DNA of 64,000 nucleotides, taken from Ruegeria atlantica (lineage in GTDB: Bacteria > Pseudomonadota > Alphaproteobacteria > Rhodobacterales > Rhodobacteraceae). The stretch spans positions 248,001-312,000 of the forward strand of contig NZ_WQCF01000001.1 of NCBI RefSeq assembly GCF_013032455.1, given 5' to 3'. Below, one piece after another: positions 28,893 through 36,612 of the stretch; position 1 is the stretch's first letter; each line of letters opens with the position of its first letter. The notes beneath the pieces are model-generated. The model saw only the letters and a list, made by a program, of their open reading frames with translations. It was not told the DNA's origin and ran no database searches. The translations under genes were made by a program, and so were the position numbers.

Positions 28893-30269
28893 CTAGTTCG
28901 TTATGATCTCTGGCCCCATGAAGGTGTTCGGCAGGAAGGTCGAAATCCACGGTATGTACGTAACCATGATCAAGAAAACGAACAGCACAGCCAGGAACGG
29001 CAGCGCCGCCTTCACCACGCTCATCATTGGCATGCCAGCCACGCCCGAAGTCACGAACAGGTTCAACCCGACCGGAGGTGTGATCATCCCGATCTCCATG
29101 TTGACCACCATGATGATGCCCAGATGGATCGGGTCGATGCCCAGTTCGATCGCAATCGGGAATACCAGAGGTGCCACGATCACCAGTAGGCCCGATGGCT
29201 CCATGAACTGACCACCAATCAGCAGGATCACGTTGACCACAATCAGGAACGTCACCGGCCCCAGCCCCGCAGACAGCATGGCGCTGGCGATATGTTGCGG
29301 CACCTGCTCGTCCGTCAGTACATGCTTCAGGATCAGCGCGTTGGCGATGACGAACAGCAACGTAACTGTCAGCTTACCGGCCTCGAACAGAGTATGCTTG
29401 GTGTCCGGATGGAAGAAAGCAGTGACCAAAGCATAGGGCTTTTTCAGAAGCGGCAAGTTGGCCGTGCCCTCTTCTGTGCTGAGCGGCCCCATGTCCTTGT
29501 AGACAAAGCTGGCGATTAAGAACGCATAGACGGCAGCAACCGCAGCGGCCTCGGTCGGCGTGAAGATTCCGCCGTAGATACCGCCCAGGATAATGACGAT
29601 CAGGAACAGACCCCAACCGGCCTCTCGTGCCGAGGTGAAGACTTCGCCCCAACCTTTCCACTCACCTTTCGGCAGGTTCTTGACCTTGGCCATGACGTAG
29701 ATGGTGATCATCAACATCAGACCCGCCATCAGGCCCGGAATGACGCCCGCCAGGAACATGCGCCCAACCGAGACTTCAACAGCCGCAGCGTACACGACCA
29801 TCACAATGGAAGGCGGGATCAGGATGCCCAGCGTACCGGCGTTACAGATCACACCTGCGGCGAATTCCTTGGAATAGCCGACCTGCCGCATCCCCGCGAT
29901 CACAATCGAGCCGATAGCCACCACAGTTGCCGGAGACGAGCCGGAAAGCGCTGCGAACAGCATACAGGCAAACACACCCGCGATCGCCAGACCACCGGGC
30001 AAATGACCGACACAGGCAATCGAGAACCGGATGATCCGCCGCGCGACGCCGCCTGTCGTCATGAAGGACGACGCGAGGATGAAGAACGGGATCGCCAGCA
30101 GGGTAAAGTGCCCCTCAAACGCCTCGAACAGCGTCCCCGCGACCGAAGCCAGCGAACTGTCGGAATAAATCAGCAAGAACAGGGTTGAGCTGAGGCCAAG
30201 CGCCACCGCAATCGGAACACCGATCAGCAGCAGGCCAATGACCATTGAGAATAGAAGAATTACGTCCAT
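28893..30269 (-). CDS. dctM: TRAP transporter large permease DctM
   Basis: The 458-residue multi-helix membrane protein is the ion-coupled transport subunit of a tripartite C4-dicarboxylate transporter. The DctM pattern is visible: IPFFILASSFMTTGGVARRI, LFAALSGSSPATVVAIG, GILIPPSIVMVVYA and near the end EIGMITPPVGLNLFV. There is a somewhat long loop around residues 255-290. Its ATG overlaps the dctQ stop by one base (TGATG). Confidence 0.96.
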   Translation of the reverse strand: MDVILLFSMVIGLLLIGVPIAVALGLSSTLFLLIYSDSSLASVAGTLFEAFEGHFTLLAIPFFILASSFMTTGGVARRIIRFSIACVGHLPGGLAIAGVFACMLFAALSGSSPATVVAIGSIVIAGMRQVGYSKEFAAGVICNAGTLGILIPPSIVMVVYAAAVEVSVGRMFLAGVIPGLMAGLMLMITIYVMAKVKNLPKGEWKGWGEVFTSAREAGWGLFLIVIILGGIYGGIFTPTEAAAVAAVYAFLIASFVYKDMGPLSTEEGTANLPLLKKPYALVTAFFHPDTKHTLFEAGKLTVTLLFVIANALILKHVLTDEQVPQHIASAMLSAGLGPVTFLIVVNVILLIGGQFMEPSGLLVIVAPLVFPIAIELGIDPIHLGIIMVVNMEIGMITPPVGLNLFVTSGVAGMPMMSVVKAALPFLAVLFVFLIMVTYIPWISTFLPNTFMGPEIITN

Positions 30270-30946
30270 CAGTCATGCTCCCCCTGCTGAGCGCGCACTT
30301 CTTCGATCTCATCCTCAACCTCATGACTGGCGACAAGACGATCCGTTTCGCCGCGCCAGATCTGAACTGCGACCTGAGAAAAACGGATCACCAGCAACAG
30401 CATCGACAGTGGCAAGATGAAATAAGGAACGACCTTTGGCAGCTTTTCATAGGCTTCGCCGTAGTTGATCATGTCTTCCAGGAACCGCAGAGGTGCGACC
30501 ATGGGGATGTCATCAACTTCGTAAAAGCTCTGGCTACGGGCATCGACATTGAAGCCGGTCGGGAACCAGCGGCCCGACGTGGGCGGCAAATCCGCGAACA
30601 CAGCCCAATAGTCATAGGCGCCCTTCAACAGCAGCAGCGAGAATAGCAGACAGCATGCCACAGCGATCAACGCCAGTATCCGGCGCGGTGCTGGGGCCAG
30701 CATGTTCAGGATAGCATCCACACCCAGATGCGCGTGCTTTTTCACGGCATAAGACGCACCCAGCAGTACCAGCCAGCCAAAAGTGAACACTGTCAGCTCA
30801 AGCGCCCACAGAATGTTGGAGTTAAATACGAACCGCGCAATCACGTTGGCAAAGGTTACGGCCGTCATCAGGCCCAGTAGCAACGCGATCAGGGTTTCTT
30901 CGATATGGTCGACCAGCCCGCCTTGGCCGGGTTTCGCACCAGACAT
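30269..30946 (-). CDS. dctQ: TRAP transporter small permease DctQ
   Basis: The 225-residue protein has the four DctQ helices (first about residues 18-40). About 60 residues of extramembrane sequence separate helices 3 and 4, which is long for DctQ but known in dicarboxylate systems. The start MSGAKPGQGG at 30946 follows GGGGACAG; upstream in-frame sequence belongs to the dctP-dctQ intergenic hairpin. It is co-transcribed with dctP and dctM. Confidence 0.93.
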   Translation of the reverse strand: MSGAKPGQGGLVDHIEETLIALLLGLMTAVTFANVIARFVFNSNILWALELTVFTFGWLVLLGASYAVKKHAHLGVDAILNMLAPAPRRILALIAVACCLLFSLLLLKGAYDYWAVFADLPPTSGRWFPTGFNVDARSQSFYEVDDIPMVAPLRFLEDMINYGEAYEKLPKVVPYFILPLSMLLLVIRFSQVAVQIWRGETDRLVASHEVEDEIEEVRAQQGEHD

Positions 30947-30985
30947 CTTTCTGTCCCCGCATTTTTGTGATGAGAGTGAATAGGT

Positions 30986-31007
30986 GGCGGGCCTGATATG
31001 GCCCGCC
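30986..31007 (-). repeat. dctP-dctQ intergenic hairpin
   Basis: A perfect eight-bp GC stem (GGCGGGCC/GGCCCGCC) with a six-base loop lies between dctP and dctQ, with no T run. Such hairpins commonly protect the binding-protein transcript and lower permease expression. Confidence 0.7.
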
Positions 31008-31062
31008 CGACCAGCGCGTCCCTCCAACTCCCCAGTCCTGGGACGCGCGGCCTGAACCGGGA

Positions 31063-32064
31063 TCAGAACCCGGCGTTGATGGCCTGCGCTGCGTCGATCT
31101 TATCTTGACCCACGTCACCTGCGAACTGATCCCAGACGGGCTTCATCGCATCAACCCAAGCCTGACGTTGTTCAGGGCTTAGTTCACGAATGATGCCGCC
31201 TGCATCAGTGATCGAGGCTTTGGCCGCTTCGTTCACCGTAAAGGCTTCTTTGTTCCGGGTTGCGGTGACTTCGTCCAGAATAGTCATGAACTGATCACGC
31301 ACTTCCGGATCCAGGCTATCCAGCCAGTCGACCGAGGTCACAACCAGATAGTCGATGATGCCGTGGTTGGTCTCGGTGATGCCGTCCTGCACTTCAAAGA
31401 ACTTCTTGCCGTAGATGTTCGACCAGGTGTTTTCCTGACCGTCCACAACACCCTGCTGCAGCGCGCCATACACTTCCGAGAACGCCATCTTCTGGGGGCT
31501 GCCACCGATGGCTTCCATCTGCGCAACCAGCACGTCCGAGGACTGAACACGGAACTTCAGGCCATTGGCATCCGAAGGGTCAACCAGCGGCTTGTTGGCC
31601 GACATCTGTTTCATGCCGTTGTGCCAGAAGGCCAACCCCTGCAGTCCACGACGCTGCATACTGTCCTTCATCGCCTGACCTTCGGCCGAGGCTTGGAATG
31701 CGTCCACAGCATCGATGTTCTTGAACATGAATGGCAGGTCGAACAGACGGAATTGCTTGGTGAATTTTTCAAACTTTGACAGCGAAGGCGCGGCCAGTTG
31801 CACGTCACCTTGCAGCATCGCCTCAAGCACCTTGTCATCGTTATACAGGGTGGAGTTCGGATAGACTTCCACGCACATCACGCCATTCATCTCGTCATTG
31901 ACGCGCTGCTCCAGCAGGGATGCTGCGATGCCCTTGGGGTGTTTGTCGGTATTCGTAACATGAGCGAACTTCACGACGATCTCGCCATCATCACAGGCCG
32001 CCATGCCTGCGGTCGCTGTTACGGTCAGTGCCATGGCTGTTGCAGCCGTTGTCAGGAACTTCAT
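31063..32064 (-). CDS. dctP: TRAP transporter C4-dicarboxylate-binding protein DctP
   Basis: The 333-residue periplasmic protein has a signal peptide (MKFLTTAATAMALTVTATAG, cleavage after MAA) and the DctP fold. The substrate-binding arginine region is LKFRVQSSDVLVAQMEAIGG, followed by EVYGALQQGVVDGQENTW. It captures succinate, malate or fumarate for DctQM. AGGAAAA precedes the ATG. It is the first gene of dctPQM, behind a region with paired palindromes and a possible sigma-54 promoter. Confidence 0.95.
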   Translation of the reverse strand: MKFLTTAATAMALTVTATAGMAACDDGEIVVKFAHVTNTDKHPKGIAASLLEQRVNDEMNGVMCVEVYPNSTLYNDDKVLEAMLQGDVQLAAPSLSKFEKFTKQFRLFDLPFMFKNIDAVDAFQASAEGQAMKDSMQRRGLQGLAFWHNGMKQMSANKPLVDPSDANGLKFRVQSSDVLVAQMEAIGGSPQKMAFSEVYGALQQGVVDGQENTWSNIYGKKFFEVQDGITETNHGIIDYLVVTSVDWLDSLDPEVRDQFMTILDEVTATRNKEAFTVNEAAKASITDAGGIIRELSPEQRQAWVDAMKPVWDQFAGDVGQDKIDAAQAINAGF

Positions 32065-32228
32065 CAGTCTTTTCCTCCCAGACTTTCTAAATCTTCAACT
32101 CGGCACCCCTTCAAGCGCCGTATACTGGAAGTGAACCGAATCAACGGGCACGGCTCAACGGTTTGTTACGATTCGTGTTTTTTCTGAGATTTTGATTATA
32201 TAACAGATAATTAAAACATGCCTTCAAT

Positions 32229-32256: not shown

Positions 32257-32304
32257 GTGCGAAATTCCGCACGGCCATATCAGTTGTTGTGCGGAAATTC
32301 GCAC
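32257..32304 (-). promoter_or_regulatory. Two palindromic DctD-type upstream activating sites
   Basis: Two 16-bp dyads, GTGCGAAATTCCGCAC (32257-32272) and GTGCGGAAATTCGCAC (32289-32304), are centred 32 bp apart, about three helical turns. Arm sequence GTGCG...CGCAC resembles tandem DctD sites described for rhizobial dctA. Confidence 0.8.
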
Positions 32305-32435: not shown

Positions 32436-33665
32436 CTATCTTCGGTAATCCTCGGGGCGTATCTGATACCGGGCTAGCTTGTCGTAAAACGTCTTGCGCG
32501 GCAGCTTCAAAGCCTTAGCCGCATCCGAAGCCTTTCCATTGTGCCGCCCCAACGCCGCGACCAGCAATGAACGCTCCACCCGCGCCATCTGCTCGCTCAG
32601 CCCCAGATCGGTGGCCTGCGCCACTTCTTCCGGCATACCAAGCACGAACCGCATCGCGGCCGACATCAAAGACCGCGCATTCCCCGGCCAGTCGGCGGCC
32701 ATCAGAGCCGCCAAATGTTCCGAGGAAATCTCGGGTTCTGCGATGCCCGCTTGCTCAGCTGCCTGAGCCACATTGTGTCGAAAAATTACCGGAATATCCT
32801 CGGGGCGCTCAGCCAGTGACGGAATACGCACACGCATTACGTCCAACCGATAGAACAAGTCCGCCAGAAATCGCCCGTCGGATGACAGATCCGCAAGATC
32901 CGCCGTTGTTCCCGCAAGGATACGCGCGCCTGTTCCCTGCTCAACCAATTCCAGCGCGGCATATTGCGTGGCTTCAGGCATGGCTGAAATCTCATCCAGA
33001 AACAGTGATCCACCGGCTGCGTCCTCGCAAATCTGAACCAGCGCGTCCGGCGTCAAACCCGATGATGGCCTTTTTACAAACGGCCCCTGCCCCTGCGGTG
33101 ACATCAGATGCACAACCTCGGCCACCTTGGATATCCCACTACCTGCTGGCCCGGTCACCAGAACCTCAGCCCCAGTGGGCGCAACGGTCCGAACCCGCTC
33201 TCGCAATGCTTCTGCCTGAGGAGACAAACCGAACAGTAACCGAGCAGCCGGATCTCCACGCTCCAACTCATGCTTAAGCGCGCGCTCTTCCAAAACCTGA
33301 GTGCGCACGGCAAAAGCCTTGCTCAAAACATCCAAAAGATCAGCGGCTGCACATGGTTTTTCAAGAAAATCAAATGCGCCCTGCCCCATGGCCCGCACCG
33401 CCATCGGAATATCCCCTTCACCGGTCAATAGAATGACTGGCAAATCCGGGTCGATCTCAAGCGCATAGGTCAGCAGATGAAACCCATCACGGCCCGGCAT
33501 TCGAATATCAGATACGATCACACCGGGAAAATCCGCGCGAATGTGATCTTTCGCCGCCACGAAAGAACCAGCCGACACGGGAAGATAATCCGCAAGTTCC
33601 AGCGTTTGCGCCAGCGCCTCACGCACGGCGGCGTCGTCATCAACCAAAAGAACTTTACGCGTCAT
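32436..33665 (-). CDS. dctD: DctD-like response regulator with degenerate AAA+ domain
   Basis: The 409-residue protein has a receiver domain (phosphoacceptor Asp53 in VIVSDIRMPG), a sigma-54 activator-like AAA+ domain and a C-terminal Fis-type HTH (KASDAAKALKLPRKTFYDKL). The AAA+ domain is altered: the Walker A lysine is missing (GPAGSGISK, residues 172-180), and the stretch that should hold GAFTGA is absent, going directly from KRPSSGLTPDALVQ to GGSLFLDEI. It therefore probably cannot hydrolyse ATP or remodel sigma-54 holoenzyme and may act as a conventional DNA-binding activator. It overlaps dctB by four bases. Confidence 0.93.
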   Translation of the reverse strand: MTRKVLLVDDDAAVREALAQTLELADYLPVSAGSFVAAKDHIRADFPGVIVSDIRMPGRDGFHLLTYALEIDPDLPVILLTGEGDIPMAVRAMGQGAFDFLEKPCAAADLLDVLSKAFAVRTQVLEERALKHELERGDPAARLLFGLSPQAEALRERVRTVAPTGAEVLVTGPAGSGISKVAEVVHLMSPQGQGPFVKRPSSGLTPDALVQICEDAAGGSLFLDEISAMPEATQYAALELVEQGTGARILAGTTADLADLSSDGRFLADLFYRLDVMRVRIPSLAERPEDIPVIFRHNVAQAAEQAGIAEPEISSEHLAALMAADWPGNARSLMSAAMRFVLGMPEEVAQATDLGLSEQMARVERSLLVAALGRHNGKASDAAKALKLPRKTFYDKLARYQIRPEDYRR

Positions 33666-35392
33666 GCCACTTCATCTTCCCGATACGCTTCAAGCTCGAC
33701 AGTGAACACCGCCCCTGTTTGCGTATTTGCCCCGCGGATATTGCCACCAAAACTTTGGACCAAACCATACGAGATTGACAGACCAAGACCCATCCCCTCG
33801 GACGACCCTACCGCCTTGGTGGAGTAGAAGGGTTCGAACAGCTTCTCGGTATTCTCAATGCCGGGTCCGATGTCGTGTACAGTGACAGAAAGCGGCTCTT
33901 CGCTGTCGACTTCAATGCGAATAAGCCGATCGTCTTGCTGGCTCATCGCGTCAGCAGCATTGTTGATCAGGTTCACAAAGACCTGCACCAACCGTACCTC
34001 TCCACCCCAAGCGAAAACTGGCCCGTCCGAGGGCTGCCAATGCAACTTAACACCTTCAGCACGCAAACGCGCATCGGTTAGTTCCACGGCTGTGTTGATC
34101 ACCTGCACCAAATCAACCTTGCCCATCGGTTCGCTTTCATTGCGCGCGAAGGCGCGAAGATTCTTGATGATACGCGCCATCCGAGAGGCCATGTCCGAAA
34201 TGCGACTCAGATTTTCTGAGGCCTTTTCTGAACGCCCCTTTGTCAGAAACGCCGCGCCATTATCCGCGAATTGCCGTATCGCCATCAGGGGTTGATTCAA
34301 TTCATGACTGATCCCCGCTGACATCTGACCCAAAGCGCTAAGCTTGCCGGCCTGTATTAGTTCTTCCTGCGCGTGTTTCAGTGCGGTCTCGGCCTCTTGT
34401 CTTTCACGCACCTCGCGTCGCAGGGCCGTGTTGGCGACCGTCAAGGCGCGCGTACGCTCTGTAACGCGGCTTTCCAAAATCACGTTTGTTTCGGCCAAGG
34501 TTCGCCGCCGTTCAGTCGCCAGAAACAGCAGCGCTCCGAACGCCAAACAGATCGCTGCGACGGTTGCCGCCTGCAACCCAGCCAAACGCTGGGCTGGGGC
34601 GACATCAACCAGCACCTCTGCCGTCATGTCGATCACCGGAAGGTCCAGCATCAGGTGCAGCGCGCGTTGCGGAAGATAGCGGCCCCAGTTCAGCGTCCAT
34701 AGCTCATGCCCGCCAACCATGGTCGTCGCGAAATCGACGGGGCCTCCGTCTGGTGGTTGCAAGCCCTGCTGCCCTTCGGCTCTTTGCCAGAACAGAAGGT
34801 CAGACCGGTTCGAGATAAAGACTACCCCGTCCCCGTCGATGAAAAACACCGCCTCGGTACTGCCACGCCAAGTCTGCTCCACATCCTGCACATCAGCCAC
34901 AACCATCAGCGCGCCCTCAACGCGCCCCGTGGAATCAAATGCAGGTGCCGCGTAAGAATAAGTCCGCTCTCCGCTATCCAGCGCACCATGCGCGTTACCC
35001 AAAGCCCCCTGCAAGGCCCGCCGAAATGCCGGGTGATCCGCCATATCCTTTTGCGCCACGGGTTGGGCCGAGGTCAGAACCTGTCCGCGACGATCCAGAT
35101 ACATCATGTTCACCGCAGCCGTCTTGTCAGTCACATCCAACAAAACCGCTTGCGCCGCCTGTTGCCGGGCCGGGCTATCCAATGTGCGCAAGGTGGGGTG
35201 GGTGGCCATAAGCACAGCCAATTCCTGATACACCTGCATCTGGGTGCTAAGCCTATCGGCAGCCAGTTCAAGATCGGCCTCGGCCTTTTCGCTAAGCTGC
35301 GACAGTGCCTGTCGATAGCCATAAGACCAAACCCCGGCGGACAACAGCCCGACGGCAAACAGAAATCCAAGGATCATCCAAATCCGTTGCAT
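33662..35392 (-). CDS. dctB: C4-dicarboxylate sensor histidine kinase DctB
   Basis: The 576-residue protein has a first membrane helix (about 5-25), a periplasmic double-Cache-type sensor region, a second helix (about 273-292), a coiled coil (300-345), a HisKA domain with His363 in MSAGISHELNQPLMAIRQF and an HATPase domain (NLINNAADAM, DIGPGI, GMGLGLSI). It would sense dicarboxylates and phosphorylate the adjacent DctD. No strong ribosome site is seen at the chosen ATG, so the start is slightly uncertain. Confidence 0.95.
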   Translation of the reverse strand: MQRIWMILGFLFAVGLLSAGVWSYGYRQALSQLSEKAEADLELAADRLSTQMQVYQELAVLMATHPTLRTLDSPARQQAAQAVLLDVTDKTAAVNMMYLDRRGQVLTSAQPVAQKDMADHPAFRRALQGALGNAHGALDSGERTYSYAAPAFDSTGRVEGALMVVADVQDVEQTWRGSTEAVFFIDGDGVVFISNRSDLLFWQRAEGQQGLQPPDGGPVDFATTMVGGHELWTLNWGRYLPQRALHLMLDLPVIDMTAEVLVDVAPAQRLAGLQAATVAAICLAFGALLFLATERRRTLAETNVILESRVTERTRALTVANTALRREVRERQEAETALKHAQEELIQAGKLSALGQMSAGISHELNQPLMAIRQFADNGAAFLTKGRSEKASENLSRISDMASRMARIIKNLRAFARNESEPMGKVDLVQVINTAVELTDARLRAEGVKLHWQPSDGPVFAWGGEVRLVQVFVNLINNAADAMSQQDDRLIRIEVDSEEPLSVTVHDIGPGIENTEKLFEPFYSTKAVGSSEGMGLGLSISYGLVQSFGGNIRGANTQTGAVFTVELEAYREDEVA

Positions 35393-35439
35393 GACATAGG
35401 GTCTTGCATTCGACGCGCCTCATGGCAAGTCTGCCTCGC

Positions 35440-36612
35440 ATGAAGACCGTAATCCAATCCCCGGTGGAACCGGGTTTCGTGCAAAATCCTTATGCCTTCT
35501 ATGACACGGCCCGCACATACGGGGACCTTGTCTACTGGAATGACTACAAGAAGGTCACAGCGGTCTCGCACCGTGCTGTACAGGCGCTGCTAAAAGACAG
35601 ACGCTTTGGCCGAGAAGTTCCCGCCGAGATGCAAAGGCCCGGCCCCGCGCATCTGCTCCCGTGGTTGAATATCGAGGCGCATTCGTTGCTTGAGGCGGAA
35701 CCACCACGCCACACCCGTCTGCGCGCGCTGGTGATGCGAGCCTTCACGTCACGCGCGATTGCGGCACTTGAATCGTCAGTTCACGAGCTCAGCCACGCCT
35801 TGATCGACCGATTTCCCGATACTCCATTTGATCTGTTGGATGCCTTTTGCACGCGGGTGCCGGTGATCACCATCTGCCGCCTTCTGGGTGTGCCCGAAGA
35901 AATGTCGCCTGATCTACTGCGCTGGTCTCATGCGATGGTGGCGATGTATCAGGCCAGCCGCACGCACAAGACCGAGGACGCAGCCGCCAAAGCCGCCGAG
36001 GGTTTCACTGCGTTCCTGAGTGAGTACATCGAAAAACGCAGAACCGATCCCCGAGACGACCTGATCACCCGCCTGATCGCTGCAGAAGAAGATGGCGAAA
36101 AACTTTCACGCGATGAACTGGTGGCCACCTGTATCTTGCTGCTGAATGCTGGCCACGAGGCAACGGTTCATTCTCTTGGAAATGGGGTGAAAACGCTGCT
36201 GAAACTGGGTATCAACCCATGCAACCAGAGAACGGATGGGCTGGTCGAGGAAGTCCTGCGCTATGACCCACCGCTGCATATGTTCACGCGCTACGCCTAT
36301 GAAGAGGTCGAAGCCTTTGGCCACAGTTTCAAACGGGGGGATGAGGTTGCCTTGCTGCTAGGTGCGGCGAACCGCGATCCTGCGGTTTGGAGCGAGCCGA
36401 ACCGCTTTGATCCGACTCGCCCGATTGTCACTAACACCAGTTTCGGAGGTGGTCTGCATTTCTGCGTCGGGGCCCCACTGGCACGGCTAGAGATGCGCAT
36501 TGCGTTGGTGGCGTTATTCGCTCGGTGCCCGAACCTGCGCCTGACCGCCGAACCGGAATACTCAAACACCTACCACTTTCACGGGCTGACCCGCTTGATG
36601 GTTCAGACCTGA
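35440..36612 (+). CDS. Cytochrome P450
   Basis: The 390-residue haem mono-oxygenase has the I-helix oxygen-binding segment LLLNAGHEATVH, the K-helix EEVLRY and the haem-ligand loop FGGGLHFCVGAPLARLE. It resembles the bacterial class I P450s of about 400 residues, which need a ferredoxin partner not encoded here. The substrate is unknown. ATG at 35440 (MKTVIQSPVEPGF) is preferred by family resemblance; an ATG at 35422 is also in frame. No clear ribosome site precedes either. It is divergent from dctB and convergent with lrp. Confidence 0.92.
   Translation: MKTVIQSPVEPGFVQNPYAFYDTARTYGDLVYWNDYKKVTAVSHRAVQALLKDRRFGREVPAEMQRPGPAHLLPWLNIEAHSLLEAEPPRHTRLRALVMRAFTSRAIAALESSVHELSHALIDRFPDTPFDLLDAFCTRVPVITICRLLGVPEEMSPDLLRWSHAMVAMYQASRTHKTEDAAAKAAEGFTAFLSEYIEKRRTDPRDDLITRLIAAEEDGEKLSRDELVATCILLLNAGHEATVHSLGNGVKTLLKLGINPCNQRTDGLVEEVLRYDPPLHMFTRYAYEEVEAFGHSFKRGDEVALLLGAANRDPAVWSEPNRFDPTRPIVTNTSFGGGLHFCVGAPLARLEMRIALVALFARCPNLRLTAEPEYSNTYHFHGLTRLMVQT

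Follow-up and report, generated by a model that had tools for sequence, protein, structure and literature searches.

How does a response regulator built like a sigma-54-dependent activator control its target genes when both the ATP-binding lysine and the loop that contacts sigma-54 have gone? The question is raised by dctD (32436..33665, minus strand), which lies in the 64,000-nucleotide stretch of DNA that was analysed here as a whole (the window). The gene encodes a 409-residue response regulator with a receiver domain (REC), a degenerate AAA+ domain and a Fis-type helix-turn-helix (HTH). Upstream, and overlapping the start of dctD by 4 bases, is dctB (33662..35392, minus strand), whose product is a sensor kinase carrying a Cache-type domain (dCache_1, 44.4 bits, narrowly missing the 45-bit cut-off). 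Downstream, after a gap of 371 bp, the same strand carries dctP (31063..32064, with its ATG from 32064), dctQ (30269..31027, start as given in the open reading frame list) and dctM (28893..30269), which encode a TRAP solute-binding protein, small permease and large permease, respectively. The order is therefore dctB, dctD, gap, dctP-dctQ-dctM, and dctP is the first gene of dctPQM, the presumed target operon. With REC, AAA+ and Fis-type HTH domains beside a DctB-type kinase and a dicarboxylate transporter, the protein has the make-up of a DctD. Beyond dctB, a cytochrome P450 reading frame (35404-36612, plus strand; Pfam p450, 1.1e-31) is directed away from it, and its listed start does not overlap dctB. 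The host genome is 4.24 Mb in size and 99.92% complete, and the nearest named relatives found belong to Ruegeria.

The remade AAA+ domain of DctD

Pfam analysis of DctD returned Response_reg (2.4e-24), Sigma54_activat, Sigma54_activ_2, an AAA lid and the Fis-type HTH_8. The first-pass annotation had described a DctD that keeps Walker B and the C-terminal HTH and lacks the Walker A lysine and GAFTGA, and our alignments confirmed this on all four points. Codons 172-180 (33126..33152, minus strand) encode an altered Walker A, GPAGSGIS, in which isoleucine stands at the lysine position (residue 178), and a new conserved lysine follows at residue 180. The stretch from the first glycine of the motif to the next histidine is equally long in a canonical relative, L187 (GETGAGKEVAARMLH), and in the window DctD (GPAGSGISKVAEVVH), indicating that the lysine was substituted and not shifted by an insertion; an alignment slip was thereby ruled out as the cause of the lost lysine. 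GAFTGA and its near variants are absent from the protein, and 19 alignment columns including the L1 loop are empty. The receiver aspartate, Walker B (LFLDE), the second arginine finger (YRL), sensor II (GNAR) and the HTH are still in place. Thus, both the GAFTGA loop and the Walker A lysine that define a sigma-54 enhancer-binding protein are missing. The predicted structure (mean pLDDT 88.3, pTM 0.57) has a folded AAA+ core, and its fold matches, among them NtrX, NtrC1, FleQ and VpsR (7v2b), are those expected of the family and do not discriminate between modes of action.

Ten Sigma54_activat matches were found in the host genome and, by reading of the sequences, were assigned to six activator-type and two Clp-type proteins. 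None of the six activator-type proteins has a GAFTGA-like motif, and only in the window DctD is the Walker A lysine missing. The other five (L001 to L005; C23, C36, C1, C40) keep that lysine without a GAFTGA-like motif; they read as NtrX, a 367-residue frame, a second DctD-like protein, an AcoR-like protein and NtrC.

These observations were extended by aligning DctD across its relatives, a check that the first-pass annotation had itself proposed. A family search covered 198 genomes, and with a cut-off of our own choosing (more than 400 bits) it gave 83 core orthologues, one per genome. We found that the Walker A lysine was present in none of the 83 (0/83), nor was a GAFTGA-like motif (0/83). 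The lysine position was occupied by I in 44 rows, T in 21, V in 11, L in 2, N in 2, M in 1 and S in 1, and one row was gapped (L089, which reads GAPGTGIAK). When named and further loci were added to the 83, some of them from the same species, the resulting 187 core rows again had no lysine there, mostly I, T or V, and the new lysine two residues further on was found in 184. Receiver Asp53 was present in 82/83 core orthologues, the exception being a truncated reading frame. The Walker B aspartate was found in 79/83 and the catalytic Walker B glutamate in 69/83, arginine finger 1 in 41/83 and arginine finger 2 in 67/83 (with K in 13), the sensor II arginine in 81/83, and the HTH core was nearly invariant. 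The dN/dS of the AAA+ region was 0.035-0.109 in six of seven close pairs, with dS values of 1.2-2.2 that are near saturation, and the seventh pair could not be estimated. By these sequence estimates the AAA+ region of core DctD is under purifying selection, and together with the conserved positions they indicate that the domain is kept while its catalytic parts drift, and that the remade P-loop is itself conserved. Judged from the alignments, loss of the lysine and the loop is a property of the clade, far beyond chance; the related genomes are not independent samples. The +2 lysine and the Walker B aspartate would leave room for residual nucleotide binding. In one genome (G009) the dctD frame (L034) contains a single in-frame TAA, possibly marking a pseudogene or an assembly error.

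The region upstream of dctP

We then examined the gap between dctD and dctP, all of whose features below lie on the minus strand. A repeat search identified two palindromes, UAS1 (GTGCGAATTTCCGCAC, 32289..32304) and UAS2 (GTGCGGAATTTCGCAC, 32257..32272), which are 32 bp apart and are putative DctD sites; the tandem pair occurs at a single place in the host genome. A literature-style palindrome pattern had 0 matches in the window. Further downstream lies an IHF-like site (TAATTATCTGTTA, 32201..32213), which matches 7 of 9 letters of an IHF consensus; it is weak in the window, and its position recurs in relatives. This is followed by a predicted sigma-70-like promoter with a -35-like hexamer TTGAGC (32153..32158) and, 17 bp from it, a -10-like hexamer TTCACT (32130..32135) that matches TATAAT poorly. 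Between UAS2 and the predicted promoter the sequence is AT-rich and includes a perfect TATAAT (32195-32200). This hexamer was considered as the -10 element and set aside, since no good -35 lies at a suitable spacing from it and by eye it is not conserved in relatives.

The first-pass annotation had also seen a sigma-54-like promoter here, in tension with a DctD that lacks the loop. The pattern TGGCN7TGC found nothing in the dctD-dctP gap, and the best match to TGGCACN5TTGCA in the gap had 8 of 11 letters, a score equalled by 32.5% of 1000 shuffles. As 0/77 orthologous upstream regions have such a site either, the claim did not survive, and the tension disappears with it: no sigma-54-like promoter stands out in the window, where a conserved sigma-70-like promoter is predicted instead.

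A dctP gene was found downstream of dctD in 77 of the 83 core genomes. At least one palindrome was present at 76/77 of these loci (consensus GTGCGGAAATCCGCAC, 9 or 10 of 10 arm letters), and pairs 32-34 bp apart at 67/77, in most cases roughly 200 bp ahead of the dctP start; this start was wrongly set in L045, L046 and L053, which are among the 67, and in L055, which affects the stretch that was scanned. Relative to the second palindrome, an IHF-like site was found at +56 to +62 in 41/67 loci (median over all positional windows, 2), TTGA at +114 to +117 in 31/67 (median 1) and TTG plus two -10 letters in 19/67 (median 0), these 67 sequences having served both to discover and to score the promoter and IHF-like motifs. 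TTG occurred at +113 to +118 in 58/67, the commonest letters 17 bp further on were T, T, C or T, A, C, T, and an exact TTCACT at that distance was found in 16/58. In a further 74 named loci, which belong to the same clade and have a dctD not identical to the first set, so that they form a repeat and not an independent test, dctP was found in 62 and a pair (32 or 33 bp) in 54, with an IHF-like site in 34/54, TTGA in 22/54 and TTG plus -10 letters in 15/54. The exact -35 TTGA is thus found in under half of the loci of either set (31/67, 22/54). A looser sigma-54 pattern, which detects the site in L101, L186, L187 and L225, found none upstream of dctP at the 77 core loci (shuffles, 0.24 on average) or at the 62 further named loci. 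A first, stricter expression had found none in 90 loci, a negative that means little because it also missed the canonical L101. A candidate sigma-70-like promoter thus recurs at a fixed distance from the palindromes, with its -35 and -10 clearly assignable at fewer than half of the loci.

Sigma-54 and the order of the losses

The first-pass annotation had proposed that this DctD probably works without sigma-54, a suggestion now strongly supported: a search of the host genome revealed no sigma-54 gene, and all 83 core orthologues lack the loop (83/83). The genome had no match to the DNA-binding or core-binding Pfam domains of sigma-54, while the same models matched 4/14 control genomes, E. coli included. 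For the window DctD, neither sigma-54 in the cell nor a -24/-12 promoter at the target was therefore found. Across the surveyed genomes, sigma-54 was counted where a match exceeded 50 bits (60 genomes; 67 had any match and 61 a match over the family cut-off), and weak partial matches such as that of G075 (23 bits) were left out. By this count it was present in 17/83 core genomes (in one as a fragment with a stop, in one in two pieces) and in 43/115 others (Fisher p 0.012, for genomes that are related and hence not independent). Within the same genus, 6/54 genomes had a match over the cut-off, of which 5 were convincing. In one close relative an in-frame TAG interrupts an rpoN fragment (G031:C54:1297-1632), which may be a decaying sigma-54 gene. 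PMC3162934 refers to the only sigma-54-type activator of R. pomeroyi, so R. pomeroyi may carry sigma-54.

The P-loop is without lysine in all 17 core genomes that carry sigma-54 (17/17). As these genomes keep the factor, its loss alone does not explain the loss of the motifs. Conversely, L201 and L214 have no sigma-54 match in their genomes, yet their DctD-like protein keeps Walker A and a GAFPGA variant of the loop, which speaks against a simple rule that motifs are lost where sigma-54 is absent. From sequence comparison, the two losses appear to be tied only loosely. The DctD-like genes with GAFPGA (L201, L208 and L214; two of the three genomes without sigma-54) adjoin another transporter-type gene.

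To what state do these losses lead back? A canonical DctD with the lysine and GAFTGA was found beside dctP in three family members, L101, L186 and L187, all of which have sigma-54. In each, two palindromes are spaced by 32 bp (those of L101 are imperfect and were picked by eye), and there is a -24/-12 site (TGGCACGCATCTTGAA in L186 and L187, TGGCATGGATTCTGCA in L101). The sigma-54 pattern was thus present in 3/3 canonical relatives, compared with 4 to 6 of 2000 shuffles. The site lies at +68 from UAS2 in L101, closer than in L186 and L187 (+112 and +114). Outside the family, L225 has a palindrome together with TGGCATGCAGATTGCT beside a DctP-like gene; among 22 class-level loci it was the only one with both palindrome and -24/-12 site. 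In S. medicae, the gap between the genes of a dicarboxylate symporter and a Cache kinase contains a palindrome, GTGCGGATTTCCGCAC, together with TGGCACGCATGTTGCT, and the DctD next to this gap has GETGSGKE and GAFTGA; the record is without annotation, and the names dctA, dctB and DctD are our own assignment. The palindrome is presumably the site bound by that DctD. As most of the other class-level loci do not adjoin dctP, the evidence for the ancestral layout comes from L101, L186, L187, L225 and S. medicae.

An intermediate was also identified. L098, whose genome gave no sigma-54 match, retains GATGTGKD but not the loop. Its palindromes are 33 bp apart (the second is imperfect and picked by eye), and at +59 there is an IHF-like site (its score is tied with those of two other positions), followed at +115 by a sigma-70-type promoter, TTGATC-N17-TTCTGT. 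In the lysine-keeping L098, L101 and L187 the +2 position is hydrophobic (V or L). In a sister clade (L099, L100, L102, L103 and L104), the Walker B acids and the second arginine finger were lost in 5/5, and the Walker A lysine was kept in 4/5. The strict paired-palindrome pattern found 0/5 in the sister clade, a pattern that also missed the core genome G003. A dctB-like frame precedes dctD in this clade, and in L103 the DNA preceding this frame is by eye antisense to dctP, suggesting that the operon is divergent there.

An IQ-TREE tree was built from 54 rows, 30 of them from the 83 core orthologues, with an outgroup root that was our own choice and is drawn at the midpoint. The core formed one group (100/99), joined by the sister clade (97/88), and L098, core and sister clade together stood apart from the canonical and outgroup rows (100/98). 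Canonical, intermediate, sister and core forms therefore descend as successive forks from a common origin with the canonical DctD beside dctP. L186, L187, L201, L208, L214 and further core rows came from an order-level search, whose scores and 'stops inside' values are not meaningful because the L098 query had about 100 wrong N-terminal residues (its reading frame start was set too early). On the tree, the simplest order would be that the loop was lost together with the change of promoter, and that the ATPase was then broken by two routes.

Proposed working, alternatives and related systems

We consider it likely, with a probability of roughly 0.7, that this protein is the DctD of a DctB-DctD system for the dctPQM (TRAP) C4-dicarboxylate transporter, that it moved from a sigma-54 ancestor to sigma-70, and that it activates as a scaffold without ATP hydrolysis. 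The sequence basis for the sigma-70 reading comprises the motif losses, the lack of a sigma-54 match, the recurring arrangement of sites, the sigma-54 arrangement in canonical relatives, the order of losses on the tree and the purifying selection; we infer that DctD is controlled by phosphorylation and binds the palindromes, that IHF bends the DNA, that the sigma-70-like promoter is used and that ATP is not hydrolysed. DctB would phosphorylate DctD at Asp53 when substrate is present, and dimers of phospho-DctD would occupy the two palindromes, three helical turns apart and located some 140 and 175 bp ahead of the predicted transcript start. A bend at the IHF-like site, between palindromes and promoter, would bring DctD to sigma-70 polymerase, whose putative promoter combines a fair -35 with a poor -10. 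Activation would then occur by contact and not by ATP-driven remodelling, and the AAA+ domain, without an ATPase cycle, would serve for oligomerisation and as a contact scaffold. Most likely, DctD in a large, mostly marine clade is now a signal-controlled scaffold acting on ordinary polymerase, with its remote DNA sites kept. A wider reading, to which we give even odds, is that of a full natural sigma-factor swap: enhancers, spacing and bend site would have been kept, the loop lost first and the ATPase then dismantled in two sister clades (through the Walker A lysine in one and the Walker B acids in the other), producing in a large bacterial family a nucleotide-free, phosphorylation-gated sigma-70 activator that works at enhancer distance.

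An alternative that accepts sigma-70 is that DctD binds ATP without hydrolysing it, with the +2 lysine, Walker B and sensor II holding a nucleotide that stabilises the oligomer. The residues it calls on are indeed frequent (+2 K in 184/187, Walker B D in 79/83, sensor II R in 81/83), and R. capsulatus NtrC, as described in PMC10274813, offers a precedent. However, the P-loop lysine is missing throughout the core, the +2 position is V or L in the lysine-keeping L098, L101 and L187, the Walker B glutamate and arginine finger 1 are drifting, and in the sister clade it was Walker B that was destroyed; we regard this alternative as unlikely, though clearly the strongest competitor. That DctD is a repressor, an anti-activator or a DNA-bound relic, with dctPQM driven by something else, would fit the loss of the loop and the P-loop lysine, which are used elsewhere for activation, and the position of the palindromes, far upstream and away from the -35. 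It is made quite improbable by the purifying selection, by the palindrome pair and spacing kept at 67/77 loci, and by the fumarate defect of a R. pomeroyi SPO2630 mutant, as expected for positive control, for which this published support is indirect (PMC10130141). In Table 1 of that source, the mutant lost 96.9% of growth and 94.9% of drawdown on fumarate, like dctP and dctM mutants, and its growth loss on malate was not significant. SPO2630 is numbered just after R. pomeroyi dctMQP (SPO2626-2628); it is named a sensor protein in PMC4809877 and a regulatory protein in PMC10041152. We dropped its assignment as dctD in view of the former name, and its place in the gene order makes dctB its probable identity.

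The least probable alternative, to which we attach hardly any weight, is cryptic use of a sigma-54 missed by the assembly or the models. Carriage of rpoN by 17/83 core genomes and by 6/54 genomes of the same genus (5 convincing) would allow it, but the assembly is 99.92% complete, two domain models were negative with their controls positive, GAFTGA is absent from DctD and from all six activator-type proteins of the genome, and the sigma-54 pattern was found in 0/77 and 0/62 upstream regions.

The preferred reading, a scaffold acting on sigma-70 polymerase, can be set beside known systems. The rhizobial DctB-DctD system for dctA (Sinorhizobium) is alike in that a REC-AAA+-HTH regulator stands beside a Cache-domain kinase (by Pfam), in its dicarboxylate transport target, and in the palindrome GTGCGGATTTCCGCAC of the S. 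medicae symporter-kinase gap. By contrast, the S. medicae DctD has GETGSGKE and GAFTGA, with TGGCACGCATGTTGCT in the gap, whereas the window system has lost all three and its target is a TRAP operon. Among NtrC-family activators, R. capsulatus NtrC acts from enhancer-like sites, R. capsulatus HupR acts on hupSL from a distant site plus IHF and is reported to be active when unphosphorylated, and Vibrio cholerae VpsR is controlled by c-di-GMP and has no known partner kinase. According to PMC10274813, the GAFTGA loop of NtrC was deleted in Rhodobacterales, and R. capsulatus NtrC activates with sigma-70 and needs ATP binding. The first-pass annotation had likened the window DctD to this protein, and the comparison is apt in that the loop is gone from both and sigma-70 use is likely for DctD; its remark that NtrC still uses ATP needs rewording, as the same source describes binding rather than hydrolysis. 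The NtrC-like protein of the host genome (our naming) keeps GESGTGKS. PMC10274813 also describes VpsR as without GAFTGA, active at sigma-70 promoters and independent of ATP, and Caulobacter NtrC as without GAFTGA and active at sigma-70 promoters, with its Walker A and B residues required. VpsR, whose structure (7v2b) is among the DctD fold matches, is not a DctD; Caulobacter NtrC shares the missing GAFTGA with the window DctD and differs in that requirement. HupR, an NtrC-family protein with a changed GAFTGA that depends on sigma-70, and TyrR and DhaR, further sigma-70 activators with a lost or changed motif, are described in PMC3162934; HupR is a hydrogenase regulator of a different subfamily. 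The lost or changed GAFTGA common to such sigma-70-type activators is also found in the window DctD. No DctD of this kind was recognised in the accessible parts of the open-licence literature searched, which is weak evidence of absence. As far as we have seen, what is new is that this is a DctD, that the lysine is lost too, and that enhancer layout, sigma-54 form and intermediate can be read side by side.

Activators of this type are usually held to carry an AAA+ ATPase because sigma-54 polymerase has to be remodelled. If the ATPase does decay after a switch to a sigma-70 promoter, evolution itself has tested this dependence, and the starting point, an intermediate and two end points of the change are all available for the bench. 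If the proposed working is true, activation from a remote, bend-assisted enhancer would not in itself be a sign of ATP-driven remodelling, and the label 'sigma-54-dependent regulator' would be wrong for this DctD clade. The finding would also bear on how the uptake of C4 acids such as fumarate is controlled in these bacteria, many of which are marine.
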